38,460 nucleotides of DNA, from positions 1 through 38,460 of the IMG/VR virus record IMGVR_UViG_3300039412_000416, one strand, 5' to 3'. A program made the translations under genes and the position numbers. Of the stretch, positions 4,301-38,460 are shown one piece after another. The notes under the pieces are model-generated. The model was not told the DNA's origin. It saw only the letters and a list, made by a program, of their open reading frames with translations, and did no database searches. This DNA is from a virus. Position 1 is the first letter of the stretch. Each line of letters begins with the position of its first letter.

Positions 4301-4420
4301 ATGAGTTTTCAGAGTTTGGTGATGTTGGTGGCCGAATATGGGGCCTTGAGGGCCGGGAGCGTGGCAAAAGGTGGCAGCGTTGAAGAGCCCGGCGAAGTTT
4401 ACCTTACCGGGATGGGCTAA
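4301..4420 (+). CDS. Possible 39-aa peptide, coupled to the previous one
   Basis: The ATG immediately follows the preceding stop codon (TAG-ATG), suggesting coupled translation. The product starts MSFQSLVMLVAEYGALRAG and ends LTGMG, with its stop at the edge of the heptamer array before the portal gene. There is no independent Shine-Dalgarno. Weakly supported. Confidence 0.3.
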   Translation: MSFQSLVMLVAEYGALRAGSVAKGGSVEEPGEVYLTGMG

Positions 4421-4446
4421 AAGCTAAAAGCTAGAAGCTAGGAGCT
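4415..4446. repeat. AGAAGCT heptamer array that supplies the portal ribosome site
   Basis: Units GCTAAAA, GCTAAAA, GCTAGAA and GCTAGGA run in one orientation. The last unit provides AGGAG (4440-4444), 8 nt before the portal ATG. The same arrangement and spacing occur at 2418-2431. Confidence 0.7.
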
Positions 4447-4452
4447 TGAACC

Positions 4453-10191: not shown

Positions 10192-10263
10192 GACAGCCGC
10201 TAGCTGCTAGCTTCTAGCCTCTAGCTAGGAGCTAAAAGCTAGAAGCTGGAAGCTGGAAGCTGC
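10192..10263. repeat. Inverted heptamer array, left copy of a 47-bp direct repeat
   Basis: AGCTNCT-type units are followed by their complements, so the array can fold on itself. Positions 10194-10240 are identical over 47 bp to 11236-11282 on the other side of the DUF5131 gene. Confidence 0.8.
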
Positions 10264-10280: not shown

Positions 10281-11252
10281 ATGGGGGCGAAGACGGGGAT
10301 TGAATGGACGGATTCGACGTGGAATCCGTTTATGGGCTGTTCGCGGGTGAGCGAGGGTTGCCGGCATTGTTATGCGGAGCGGTTCGCGCGGCGACTGGAG
10401 AGTAAGCCGAACTACGCGGGCCTCACGCAGATTGTGAATGGCGCGGCGGTGTGGAGCGGGGATCTGAAAGAGGGGTCCGGAGACACCTGGGATGCGCCGT
10501 TCCACTGGAAAAAGCCACGCAATATCTTCGTTAACTCGATGAGTGATTTGTTCCACCCGAAGGCCCGCTTGGCTGGTTGGATTTCTAGGGTTTTGGCTGT
10601 GGTCGCGCTGGCTCCCCGCCACAGATTTCAGGTTCTGACAAAGCGCCCCGAGTTGATGCTGGAGTTTTTCCAACAGTTCTATTCGGCGGAGGAATGGGCT
10701 GAATCCTTGAGCACACTGCGGGATGAAGACGATATTCCGCTGTTTGGCGAGAATGCCGAGTGCGCCATTGCCAACGCCATCAATGGGGTGCTGGGCGACG
10801 GGCACAACGTGGGCTGGCCGATGCGCAACCTGTGGCTGGGCGTGAGTGACGAAGGCAATCAGCACCAACGCTTAGATTTGCTCCAGCAGACTCCTGCAGC
10901 GAAGCGATTTGTATCCTTTGAGCCGCTGATTTTCGATCTTGGAAAAGTCAATCTCGAACACATCGATTGGGTGATCTGCGGAGGTGAGAGCGGCCCTGGC
11001 GCGCGGCCGATGCACACGGATTGGGCGCGGAGCCTGCGGGACCAGTGCGTGGCTGCGGGCGTGCCGTTCTTCTTCAAGCAATGGGGCGAGTGGTGCGACT
11101 GGGACCAACTGCCAGAAGATACAGCGCAACGTCTTGATGCTAATGGAGAAACGCCCACCGAAGGCCTTCTCCGTGTCGGCAAGAAAGCCGCCGAGGCGCT
11201 GCTGGATGGGCGCGAGTGGAAGGAGTTTCCAAAGGCAGCCGCTAGCTGCTAG
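10281..11252 (+). CDS. DUF5131 family protein (phage Gp37/Gp68 type)
   Basis: A 323 aa protein starting GAKTGIEWTDSTWNPFMGC, the hallmark of the family. The three-cysteine motif is C20-x6-C27-x2-C30 (GCSRVSEGCRHCYAERF), a variant of the radical SAM cluster motif. Later blocks fit the family: NIFVNSMSDLFH, RFQVLTKRPELM, PMRNLWLGVS, RFVSFEPLI, DWVICGGESGPGARPMH, VPFFFKQWG. The family is thought to bind an iron-sulfur cluster; its reaction is not established. Its frequent neighbour, the three-Cys-motif partner TcmP, is absent here. AAGGGAG precedes the ATG. The last residues (AAASC) and the stop come from the repeat array. The gene sits between two 47-bp direct repeats, suggesting it is an exchangeable cassette. 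Confidence 0.9.
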   Translation: MGAKTGIEWTDSTWNPFMGCSRVSEGCRHCYAERFARRLESKPNYAGLTQIVNGAAVWSGDLKEGSGDTWDAPFHWKKPRNIFVNSMSDLFHPKARLAGWISRVLAVVALAPRHRFQVLTKRPELMLEFFQQFYSAEEWAESLSTLRDEDDIPLFGENAECAIANAINGVLGDGHNVGWPMRNLWLGVSDEGNQHQRLDLLQQTPAAKRFVSFEPLIFDLGKVNLEHIDWVICGGESGPGARPMHTDWARSLRDQCVAAGVPFFFKQWGEWCDWDQLPEDTAQRLDANGETPTEGLLRVGKKAAEALLDGREWKEFPKAAASC

Positions 11253-11301
11253 CTTCTAGCCTCTAGCTAGGAGCTAAAAGCTGGAGGCTAGAGGCTGCTT
11301 T
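11235..11301. repeat. Inverted heptamer array, right copy of the 47-bp direct repeat
   Basis: Positions 11236-11282 repeat 10194-10240 exactly. The stop codon of the DUF5131 gene lies inside it. The array continues with GCTGGAGGCTAGAGGCT. Confidence 0.8.
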
Positions 11302-12991: not shown

Positions 12992-13084
12992 GACAGCTTT
13001 TAGCTGTTAGCTTCTAGCTTTTAGCTCCGAAGTTGGAACCGGGGCTTCTGGCTAGAAGCTAATAGCTAATGGCTAATGGCTGTT
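12992..13084. repeat. Inverted heptamer arrays after the capsid gene
   Basis: AGCTTTTAGCTGTTAGCTTCTAGC is mirrored after a 35-nt centre by GCTAGAAGCT, AATAGCTAATGGCT and AATGGCT. It could fold as a long stem and might act as a weak terminator or RNA-stability element after the abundant capsid message. Confidence 0.7.
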
Positions 13085-19088: not shown

Positions 19089-19135
19089 GACAGGTTTCAG
19101 GGGTCAGGTTTCAGGTTTCAGGTTTCAGGAGTCAG
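19089..19135. repeat. GGTTTCA heptamer array
   Basis: CAGGTTTCAGGGGTCAGGTT is followed by further TCAGGTTTCAGGTTTCAGG units: about six near-exact 7-bp repeats after the tail gene stop. Confidence 0.8.
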
Positions 19136-23803: not shown

Positions 23804-23892
23804 ACAGTGGTCAGTGATCAGTGGTCAGTGGTCAGACGTGCGCGGTGTGGGCCTCTGGTCACTGAACATTGAACACTGAACACTGAACACTG
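23804..23892. repeat. CAGTGGT and TGAACAC heptamer arrays
   Basis: CAGTGGTCAGTGATCAGTGG and further TCAGTGGTCAG lie at 23805-23835. CACTGAACATTGAACACTG and further GAACACTG units lie at 23860-23892, reaching to within 2 nt of the next ATG. The two halves are partly complementary. Confidence 0.8.
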
Positions 23893-31350: not shown

Positions 31351-31386
31351 AAACAGTGATCAGTGGTTAGTGATTAGGGATCAGGG
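31351..31386. repeat. CAGTGAT/CAGTGGT heptamer array
   Basis: AACAGTGATCAGTGGTTAGT then GATTAGGGATCAGGG, directly upstream of the endolysin. Confidence 0.65.
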
Positions 31387-32056: not shown

Positions 32057-32140
32057 CGCGTTCATGCTGCCTCCTGTTGGGTTAGTGGATGAGGGTTGCG
32101 GCCAGGACGCCTTTCGTGTGGGATTACAAATTGGTTTTTC

Positions 32141-32172
32141 TGATCCCTGATCCCTGAAACCTGTTCCCTGCT
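32141..32172. repeat. GATCCCT/CCTGAAA array after dnaB
   Basis: TGATCCCTGATCCCTGAAAC then CTGTTCCCTG: 7-bp units, complementary in type to the GGTTTCA/GGGAACA arrays of the rightward genes. It ends 2 nt before the dnaB stop (read leftward). Confidence 0.65.
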
Positions 32173-35423: not shown

Positions 35424-35972
35424 ATGAAAACGATTGCGTACTACCGCGTAAGTGATCCAAAGCAAGGGGTTAGCGGCCTGGGACTGGAAGCGCAAAAGGC
35501 TGTCGCTGCAGCCTATGAGCCGCTGACCGAGTACATCGAAGTGGAGTCTGGCAGTAAGAACAAGGGCTCGAACCGGCCGCAACTGGAGGCGGCGCTGGCC
35601 CATTGTAAGCGGGCCAAGGCTACGCTGGTGATTGCCAAGCTCGACCGCCTGGCGCGAAATGTGCACTTCATCTCTGGCTTGATGGAGGCGGGCGTGGACT
35701 TTATCTGCTGCGACATGCCGGCGGCGAACCGCTTTGTGCTGCACGTGATGGCGGCGATGGCGGAGCAGGAGGCCCGGAACACGAGCGAGCGCACCAAGGC
35801 GGGCTTTGCGGCGCTGCGTGCGCGTGGCATGTGGAGCAATAAGCTGGGGCGCGTGGTAAAACCCGGTAATCCCCGGTGGAAAGAGTCGATCGAGCGGGCG
35901 CGTGCGGCTAGGTGGCCGGCGTTGCCGACCAATCCTGAATTGCGCGACAAGCGGCATGGCTCGTGGGCGTAG
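35424..35972 (+). CDS. Serine recombinase (resolvase/invertase family)
   Basis: A 182 aa protein. The N-terminal catalytic domain is complete: AYYRVSDPKQG with Arg8 and nucleophile Ser10, LGLEAQKAVAAA, ATLVIAKLDRLARN (72-79 contains the conserved Asp-Arg-Leu-x-Arg), and FVLHVMAAMAEQEARNTSER in the long E helix. The C-terminal 45 aa are basic (KLGRVVKPGNPRWKESIERA) and lack a clear Hin-type helix-turn-helix, so DNA recognition may differ. The family breaks and rejoins DNA through a 5'-phosphoserine. It is too short for a large serine integrase, so resolution of dimers or inversion is more likely than integration. GGGGGC before the ATG is a weak ribosome site. Confidence 0.9.
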   Translation: MKTIAYYRVSDPKQGVSGLGLEAQKAVAAAYEPLTEYIEVESGSKNKGSNRPQLEAALAHCKRAKATLVIAKLDRLARNVHFISGLMEAGVDFICCDMPAANRFVLHVMAAMAEQEARNTSERTKAGFAALRARGMWSNKLGRVVKPGNPRWKESIERARAARWPALPTNPELRDKRHGSWA

Positions 35973-36521
35973 GCGCTGGTCCCAAGGCTCGGAGCTGGCT
36001 GGCGCGTGCGTTCTGGATCGGCGGCGCGGCGGCGGCTTGGGACTCCAGCCCTGCCTGGGGGTGGCACACCTTGCAGAGGCCGGGTGGCAAACTGAAAGTA
36101 CCTATCCCCCGGCAGAGGGGGTATGGGCAGCGCTGCTGGATTTCCGTTTGGGTTGCCCCAAAATTTTTTCAACGCGAAAAACTTTTCGGCCCGCTCCGGA
36201 TCTGTGGCTTGCGGCGATGGGAGGCCTGCTTAAACCAGCCAGCGCCCGCGTCCTGCTATAGCGCCCTGCGCGCGATGGCGGCCCAGACGCTCCTCACGAC
36301 CCCCCGGTCACCGCGGCGCGTCCTGGGGCATTTCTGGCGGTTTTTACCGCGTTCCGACTCCGCTGCCGATTCGTAAATGATTTTTGGCCGCGCCCGCGCT
36401 GGGTTTTTGAGGGTTTTCCACAGAAACAGACGGTTTTGCACAGGGAAAGGCTCTGGATTCTCTGAGGCTCTGGTGCTAGAAGGGATAGGTTCCGGTTTTC
36501 ACCTTGAATCCTGGAGATGAG
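35973..36521. other. 549-nt gap; possible replication origin region
   Basis: No convincing gene. Open frames at 35902-36261 and 35963-36376 lack ribosome sites and have odd composition. The region holds T-rich tracts (TTTTTTCAACGCGAAAAA near 36165-36182), AT-richer sequence at 36375-36440, and two DnaA-box-like 9-mers at 36414 and 36434. Confidence 0.45.
36414..36442. promoter_or_regulatory. Two DnaA-box-like sites
   Basis: TTTTCCACA (36414-36422) and TTTTGCACA (36434-36442) both fit TTWTNCACA, lie in the same orientation and are 20 bp apart. AT-rich DNA precedes them. Candidate origin element upstream of the initiator-like gene. Confidence 0.4.
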
Positions 36522-36728
36522 ATGGGCGTCCGCGGACCTCATGCACAGATTGATCCGCGCAAGCTGCGCTACGTTGTACTGATGAGGTCCTCGGGTCTAC
36601 ATTTCAATCTGAGGCCACTGCGGCGGCGGCTGACCGGTACGTTCCTGACCCAACTCGATGCCTGCGCCTGCGACGAAGCACGGAGGCTAATGTTGCGCCC
36701 GATCGGCGCTGGCGCGAAGAGGGCTTGA
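36522..36728 (+). CDS. Small hypothetical protein
   Basis: A 68 aa protein. CTGGAG lies 5 nt before this ATG; an in-frame TTG at 36504 is less likely. The content is PRKLRYVVLMRSSGLHFNLR, then RRLTGTFLTQLDACACDEAR, basic with a CAC pair. It ends 4 nt before the replication gene, so the two are cotranscribed. No family is recognised. Confidence 0.5.
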   Translation: MGVRGPHAQIDPRKLRYVVLMRSSGLHFNLRPLRRRLTGTFLTQLDACACDEARRLMLRPIGAGAKRA

Positions 36729-36732
36729 TGCG

Positions 36733-37620
36733 ATGCCGTTTGTAAAGCTGGATACTGGGATCCTGCGCTCCACGCTTTGGATGGAGCGGGACCAGTGTGA
36801 CGTGTTTCTGACGGCGCTCCTGATGGCGGAGCCGAAGGAGTTCAAGGAGCCGCAGTCGCAGATCGAGGTCGACAGCCTGGAGCTGACCGGCTTTGTGGCG
36901 CCCTCGGGGTGGTACGGGTTCTGCGCTGCGGCCGGCGTGGGCATCATCCGCATGTCGCACACCGATCCCGAACCGGGAATGGCCGCGTTGCGAGCCCTTG
37001 GAAATCCTGACGACGAGAGCCGGAGTAAGGGGTTTGGCGGCCGGCGCATGATCCGCGTCGACGGCGGTTACCTGATCCTGAACTACATGGCCTACCGGGA
37101 AAAAGACTACGAGGCCAAGGATCGGATGCGGCTTTTAAGGCAAAGACGTAAACTGGAAAGCCAAGATGTTACGCCGAACAGGCGTAACGTTACGCCGAAC
37201 AGTGACAGTGTTCACCCGAACAACCGTAACGGAATACCAAAAAGTGACGCTGTTCCCCCGAACGTTACCCAGGCAGATGCAGATGCAGATGCAGATACGG
37301 GGATCCCCCCTACCCCCCTTGCAAGCGAGCTGCACATGACCCGACTCGTGGGAACCACAGGGAACAGTGAGTGGCGGGGCTTGGCGTGCGGCGTACTGGA
37401 TGGGGCGGGGATTGCCTATGGGGTGGCCTTGCTGCGGAAGGTCGAGGCGGCGCTGATAATTCTAGCGCGCGAGGAGGAATGTGAGGCCGCGACGGCGGCA
37501 GATCGGTTGCTTGAGCGGATGCAGGCGGCAGCGGAAGAGGGTCCGCAGAAGTGGCTTTTGTGGATCGAGGACGGGCGCTGGAAGAAGGCGGCTGAATTTC
37601 ATCTGGAGGGCCCGGCATGA
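36733..37620 (+). CDS. Replication-initiator-like protein
   Basis: A 295 aa protein. The N-terminal about 135 aa (VKLDTGILRSTLWMERDQCD, VFLTALLMAEPKEF, GGYLILNYMAYREKDYEAKD) resemble the winged-helix domain of phage replisome-organiser proteins. A basic helix follows (RMRLLRQRRKLE). Residues about 146-180 form a linker of five 7-residue repeats (VTPNRRN, VTPNSDS, VHPNNRN, GIPKSDA, VPPNVTQ), then an Asp-Ala run (ADADADADT) from GCAGAT repeats. The C-terminal about 100 aa are helical (AALIILAREEECEAATAADR). A repeat-bearing linker between an N-terminal DNA-binding part and a C-terminal helicase-recruiting part is common in such proteins. It overlaps the next gene (ATGA). No strong ribosome site. 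Confidence 0.65.
   Translation: MPFVKLDTGILRSTLWMERDQCDVFLTALLMAEPKEFKEPQSQIEVDSLELTGFVAPSGWYGFCAAAGVGIIRMSHTDPEPGMAALRALGNPDDESRSKGFGGRRMIRVDGGYLILNYMAYREKDYEAKDRMRLLRQRRKLESQDVTPNRRNVTPNSDSVHPNNRNGIPKSDAVPPNVTQADADADADTGIPPTPLASELHMTRLVGTTGNSEWRGLACGVLDGAGIAYGVALLRKVEAALIILAREEECEAATAADRLLERMQAAAEEGPQKWLLWIEDGRWKKAAEFHLEGPA
37168..37272. repeat. 21-bp iteron-like array in the replication gene
   Basis: Five units start at 37168, 37189, 37210, 37231 and 37252. Four share GTT-A/C-C-G/C-CCGAAC; the fourth is degenerate. Units one and two create GGCGTAACGTTACGCC (37181-37196), a perfect 16-bp palindrome. The period of two helical turns suits a row of bound proteins. Confidence 0.7.
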
Positions 37621-38022: not shown

Positions 38023-38460
38023 GTGGAGAGTAAGCGATCGCAGGGCCAACTTCGGAGGTATGCGAAGCCGGAGGTGCGGGAGAAGCTGCGCGCGGCCATG
38101 AATCGGCCGGAGGTGCGGGAGAAGCGGCGCGCGGCCATGAATCGGCCGGAGGTGCGGGAGAAGCGGCGCGCGGCCATGAATCGGCCGGAGGTGCGGGAGA
38201 AGCTGCGCGCGGCGCAAAAGGCGGCCTGGAATCGGCCGGAGGTGCGGGAGAAGCTGCGCGCGGCCATGAATCGGCCGGAGGTGCGGGAGAAGCTGCGCGC
38301 GGCCTGGAATCGGCCGGAGGTGCGGGAGAAGCGGTGCGCGGCGCAAAAGGCGGCCATGAATCGGCCGGAGGTGCGGGAGAAGCGGCGCGCGGCGCAAAAG
38401 GCGGCCTGGAATCGGCCGGAGGTGCGGGAGAAGCGGCGCGCGGCGCAAAAGGCGGCCTGG
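38023..38460 (+). CDS. Repeat protein of NRPEVREKLRAA units (cut by window edge)
   Basis: GTG start 7 nt after the previous stop; the frame VESKRSQGQLRRYAKPEVRE is open to the window end. Nine units of NRPEVREK-L/R-RAA follow the leader: short ones (13 residues, ending M or W) and long ones (17 residues, with QKAA added). The pattern NPEVREKxRxA resembles the short DNA-contacting repeats (NUMOD3-like) found beside HNH and GIY-YIG nuclease domains of mobile phage endonucleases. Here the copies are almost identical, which points to recent expansion. The C-terminus, where a nuclease domain might be, is missing. Longest open frames on the other strand are shadows. Confidence 0.6.
   Translation, partial: MESKRSQGQLRRYAKPEVREKLRAAMNRPEVREKRRAAMNRPEVREKRRAAMNRPEVREKLRAAQKAAWNRPEVREKLRAAMNRPEVREKLRAAWNRPEVREKRCAAQKAAMNRPEVREKRRAAQKAAWNRPEVREKRRAAQKAAW
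38065..38460. repeat. 39/51-bp tandem repeat array
   Basis: Nine units with nearly identical sequence (core CGGCCGGAGGTGCGGGAGAA), in two lengths (39 and 51 bp), translated as NRPEVREKLRAAM/W or with the extra QKAA. It runs to the window edge. Unlike a CRISPR array it has no spacers. Confidence 0.9.

Follow-up and report, generated by a model that had tools for sequence, protein, structure and literature searches.

A composite DNA element in the linker of a phage initiator-like gene, and its probable role as a replication origin

The initiator-like gene and its internal repeats

The window, by which we mean the whole stretch of 38,460 bp that was analyzed, is an IMG/VR virus record described as a soil phage. 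On its plus strand, positions 36733-37620 encode an initiator-like protein of 295 amino acids with an N-domain, a linker and a C-domain. Its N-domain (residues 1-140, 36733-37152, plus strand), which is conserved across 57 non-redundant viral relatives, is predicted to be a winged helix, and the C-domain (37297-37617, plus strand), which is exchanged among relatives, is presumed to be the part that recruits the replisome. Pfam, PHROG and PDB sequence searches with the protein all ended without a match. The AlphaFold2 model of the N-domain (pLDDT 83.7) weakly resembles CRP-type winged helices in a structural comparison (Z up to 7.3), and Foldseek returned nothing under E 0.7; the winged-helix assignment is a prediction from these weak structural matches. 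The phrog_186 profile (DnaD-like helicase loader) was matched by two of 20 relatives (best E 0.00044) but not by the window protein, relative L004 matched phrog_10469, likewise DnaD-like helicase loader, at E 0.036, and a DnaB-like helicase gene lies close downstream of the initiator gene in L019 and L037. Because of the predicted DNA-binding-type fold, the helicase neighbor in L019 and L037 and the DnaD-like PHROG names of two relatives, the product of gene 36733-37620 is likely a replication initiator. Shortly upstream lies a gene for a serine recombinase (35424-35972; Resolvase N-terminal domain, Pfam E 3e-24; PHROG DNA invertase).

Within the linker, a 21-bp array of five units (37168-37272, plus strand) is in frame with the gene. 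The units start at 37168, 37189, 37210, 37231 and 37252 and encode the peptides VTPNRRN, VTPNSDS, VHPNNRN, GIPKSDA and VPPNVTQ, and the array contains GTNAC-centred sites, putatively bound by the initiator, at 37168, 37184, 37189, 37202, 37226, 37244 and 37264. Unit 1 (37168-37188) is a perfect inverted repeat, GTTACGCC-GAACA-GGCGTAAC, whereas the inverted repeats of the remaining four units are partial, and a 16-bp palindrome, GGCGTAACGTTACGCC (37181-37196), spans the junction of units 1 and 2. The array is followed by what we call the RCAGA tract, (GCAGAT)4 at 37273-37296 on the plus strand, which has a GC content of 50% and is a putative opening or helicase-loading element. An earlier sequence-only reading had described five units coding for VTPNRRN-type repeats, GCAGAT repeats beside them and a perfect palindrome arising from the first two units, and all three are confirmed at these positions.

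The exact 21-bp period, on which that reading also dwelt, is present in the window, but it is not distinctive of the DNA. The self-match of the array at a 21-bp shift (0.46) exceeds that of base shuffles (0.26, p = 0.0002), while it stays within the null of synonymous shuffles (0.42, p = 0.14); at a 42-bp shift, which was picked post hoc, the self-match is 0.65 (p = 0.006 against synonymous shuffles). Since an exact 21-bp period could stem from a heptapeptide, the period alone cannot separate DNA from protein. The excess of GTNACG/CGTNAC sites, by contrast, does distinguish the two: the window linker has nine such sites against a codon expectation of 3.3, a number not reached in 300 synonymous shuffles, and eight fall within 90 bp at 37168, compared with a maximum of four in Markov-simulated windows.

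No DnaA-box-like site (with at most one mismatch) is present at 37168-37300, where the tract has a period of 6. Three one-mismatch DnaA-box-like sites are found within 140 bp (36414-36442 and 36539-36547) upstream of the initiator gene, and 10 in the whole window. A cumulative GC-skew minimum had been suggested as a check on an origin at this place; the skew is positive nearly throughout the window without a switch, and therefore lends no support and is uninformative on origin position.

The window contains further repeats. Many of the intervals that separate predicted genes are filled with tandem repeats of a 7-bp period (AGCTNNN- or CAGNNNN-like), which commonly lie directly before a start codon and are in part inverted (2358-2418, 2817-2850, 4416-4450, 10195-10261 and 11237-11268 in the first half of the set; 12995-13081, 19091-19135, 23805-23892, 31354-31384 and 32140-32170 in the second). 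An open reading frame at 38023-38460, which runs off the window end, consists of near-identical 39-bp and 51-bp repeats of the NRPEVREKLRAAM type, and it is within these repeats that two further contigs, which upstream have the same sequence as the window, depart from it.

Conservation of the element inside and outside the gene

Searching viral contigs with the protein and with growing alignments yielded 57 relatives that are non-redundant by N-domain, the window included. These are metagenomic contigs, and all evidence presented here is comparative. For the N-domains tried, INPHARED yielded no named close relative, and one scan of genome contigs gave no relative. Linkers vary greatly between relatives, and C-domains differ widely among relatives that share one N-domain; six deposited phages have the C-domain of L084 joined to other N-domains. 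In Stenotrophomonas phage CUB19 (L104, 1111-1986) and Pseudomonas phage KLEP17-4 (L105, 988-1788), which combine the L084 C-domain with another N-domain, the linkers contain the repeats CCCCCGCAGCAG and GAACAGCAGGT, respectively, and both resemble further in-gene repeat sets.

As judged by comparing these sequences, what is conserved among the relatives is a composite DNA element in which clustered GTNACG/CGTNAC sites precede an RCAGA tract. The strict 21-bp period and the palindrome of the window are not the conserved features. When the definition is a chain of two or more tract units preceded on its 5' side, within 75 bp, by three or more sites, the element is present in the gene, about 140 codons past the start, in 36 of the 57 relatives and upstream of the gene, at most 300 bp before the start codon, in nine relatives that have no linker. 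No relative has both, and the element was found nowhere else in 286 kb searched on both strands. The remaining 12 are without the element as defined, several of them with variant or inverted tracts. In L050, whose gene is shortened, the element straddles the gene's 3' end, immediately beyond the stop codon.

It could be argued that the only role of the repeats is to provide the protein with a flexible, charged linker, which grows by slippage, the DNA regularity being a by-product. The great variation tolerated in linkers is compatible with this explanation, as is the position of the window's 21-bp period within the synonymous null. However, when 46 linkers were randomly recoded according to the codon usage of their genes, sites (299 observed compared with 99.5, sd 8.7), dyads (114 compared with 31.9, sd 6.8) and summed tract length (149 compared with 37, sd 3.6) all far exceeded the recoded values. 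Tract units are GCAGA, ACAGA or GTAGA, mostly 6 bases apart but also 5 or 7, and more than one codon phase is used in 11 of 35 coding tracts. The tracts are translated as AEAEAE, ADADAD, AESREQR or RSRSRS, and as SASASA where they lie on the other strand. An exact 20-base junction pattern occurs at nine places in all viral contigs, seven of them at this initiator gene.

Motif definitions were set after the first relatives had been viewed, with the exception of a 6-mer test that was trained on coding linkers and tested upstream. The 6-mers derived from coding linkers only peak in the 150 bp upstream of linkerless initiator genes, with scores of 14-41 upstream in L069, L070, L074, L076 and L079 compared with maxima of 4-12 elsewhere in the locus. 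The upstream copies occupy the other strand, their tracts directed away from the gene, and appear to be mostly in non-coding DNA: no other open reading frame convincingly covers the copy in L070, L076, L079 and L081, whereas in L063 and L074 a long opposite reading frame partly overlaps it, making the non-coding status less certain there. The same element outside the gene refutes the protein-linker explanation for the family, and we regard that explanation as very improbable for the window. The sequence-only reading had named, as evidence against itself, relatives in which the peptide persists but synonymous changes have erased the DNA motif; the comparison showed the opposite, in that the DNA motif is kept as frame, strand and peptide change, and in linkerless members it stands outside the gene, next to the start codon. 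Taken together, four tests favour selection of the composite element as DNA over selection of the peptide, and the linker peptide would largely be a by-product of the DNA element.

A different proposal is that the repeats are recombination junctions that aid the exchange of C-domains, which would fit the fact that relatives sharing an N-domain differ in the C-domain that follows the linker. In relatives whose proteins lack a linker, however, the element lies upstream of the gene, where there is no domain junction, and we consider this proposal very unlikely.

Explaining the upstream state on the N-domain tree takes four changes, only one of them imposed by well-supported branches. Clusters of sites also occur upstream in 11 members that have a linker, and for this reason mutual exclusivity was not found for site clusters alone (Fisher p = 0.38); it holds only for the composite with its tract. 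In coding as in non-coding copies, sites are most often about 21-22 bp apart, a distance consistent with two turns of the helix. In the family, the tract is a local minimum of helix stability (-1.34 compared with -1.52 per step).

A candidate origin and its parallels

Because the element is kept in other reading frames or moved outside the gene, it is probably the site where the phage starts copying its genome. We propose, with a probability of roughly 0.78, that 37168-37296 is the replication origin of the phage, placed inside the linker-coding part of the initiator gene. The predicted winged-helix domain at the N terminus would attach to the GTNAC-centred sites, this binding would open the adjoining RCAGA tract of low stability, and the C-terminal domain would help load the replicative helicase at the opened tract.

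Alternatively, the sites might be an operator for transcription of the initiator itself, with an unrelated role for the tract and an origin elsewhere. In linkerless relatives, the initiator gene has good sigma-70-like promoters that the upstream sites overlap, so that part of the signal may be regulatory, and the upstream clusters in linker members point in the same direction. However, an operator accounts poorly for a full composite located inside the gene, some 140 codons past its start, in 36 relatives, or for a tract that comes after the sites in both positions. Autoregulation is moreover compatible with an origin, and in linkerless relatives it is likely a second role of the sites; as a complete explanation, we consider the operator rather unlikely.

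A candidate origin inside an initiator gene recalls phage lambda, in which four iterons spaced 20-24 bp apart lie inside O, at codons 117-145 of 299. The corresponding sites in the window are at codons 146-179 of 295, in agreement with the lambda-like position that had been pointed out from the sequence alone. Iterons of lambda and Stx lambdoid phages are imperfect inverted repeats adjoining an AT-rich tract that is needed for unwinding (PMC7466680). In the window, the inverted repeat is perfect in unit 1 and partial in the other units, and dyads are in excess in the family. Unlike in lambda, its sites are GTNAC-centred, RCAGA repeats of 50% GC take the place of the AT-rich tract, and in some relatives the element sits in upstream DNA. 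Homology of the window protein to O was not detected with Pfam or PHROG, searches that may miss remote kinship; given this result and the RCAGA repeats in place of an AT-rich tract, we do not class the element as a lambda O origin, and the resemblance is an analogy of layout. The suggestion of a dual-use sequence and a lambda-like in-gene origin nevertheless gains support from the family comparison, with origin activity as the conditional part.

In DnaA-trio and other bacterial opening elements, short repeats abut the initiator sites, with a spacing of 3 bases in the trio. The short repeats of the window similarly abut sites and would be a plausible opening site, but their spacing in the family is 5-7 bases and the array has no DnaA-box-like site.

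If the proposed origin is correct, a cluster of sites with an RCAGA tract, in the initiator linker or just upstream, would provide a sequence rule for finding origins in uncultivated phages, and unexplained low-complexity linkers of phage initiators would become candidate origins. Within a single gene family, an origin-like element is also seen to shift between coding and non-coding DNA. In the open-access literature searched, neither the RCAGA tract nor this initiator family was described.

RCAGA tracts in other phage initiators

Scans of viral contigs with (GCAGAA)5 and (ACAGAT)5 suggest that the tract extends beyond the family. Among the matches listed, most open reading frames are initiator-sized with the tract near codon 140-150, and many match replication-initiation, primosomal or DnaD-like families. 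Since the simple repeat itself could cause such profile matches, N-domains free of the tract were checked, and all but one of eight gave one or more profile matches, together covering several initiator or primosomal families. The coding of the repeat was also unequal: among the matches listed, (DT)5 coded by GATACA lies in initiator-like reading frames in 59 of 80 cases, compared with 7 of 73 for (DT)5 coded without ACA (most of the seven being GATACT or near variants), a difference that again speaks against a role as protein linker only. A cultured phage with a GATACA linker is Pseudomonas phage YMC11/07/P54_PAE_BP (L472).

Phage initiators with DTDTDT, AEAEAE or TETETE linkers, annotated in PHROG as DnaD-like helicase loader, replication initiation protein or primosomal protein, thus share with the window protein the order of N-domain, RCAGA-tract linker near codon 140-150 and C-domain. 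They differ from it in belonging to several other N-domain families and in often having other repeats before the tract. A connection between tract DNA and linker in these initiators was not previously reported in the papers searched. It is plausible, if less certain than the result within the family, that the tract is common to unrelated phage initiators. We consider the chances about even for the broader idea that RCAGA repeats with 5-7-bp spacing are a DNA module that initiators with unrelated N-domains and sites use regardless of frame or strand, and that acts as a common opening, helicase-loading or primase-loading element. If so, the AEAEAE, DTDTDT, SASASA and TETETE linkers of phage replication proteins would be coded origin DNA. 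Every unit of the RCAGA repeat places 5'-CTG on one strand. Limnohabitans phage DC33 and an uncultured relative combine a different N-domain with GATATCA repeats and (GAGACA)n.
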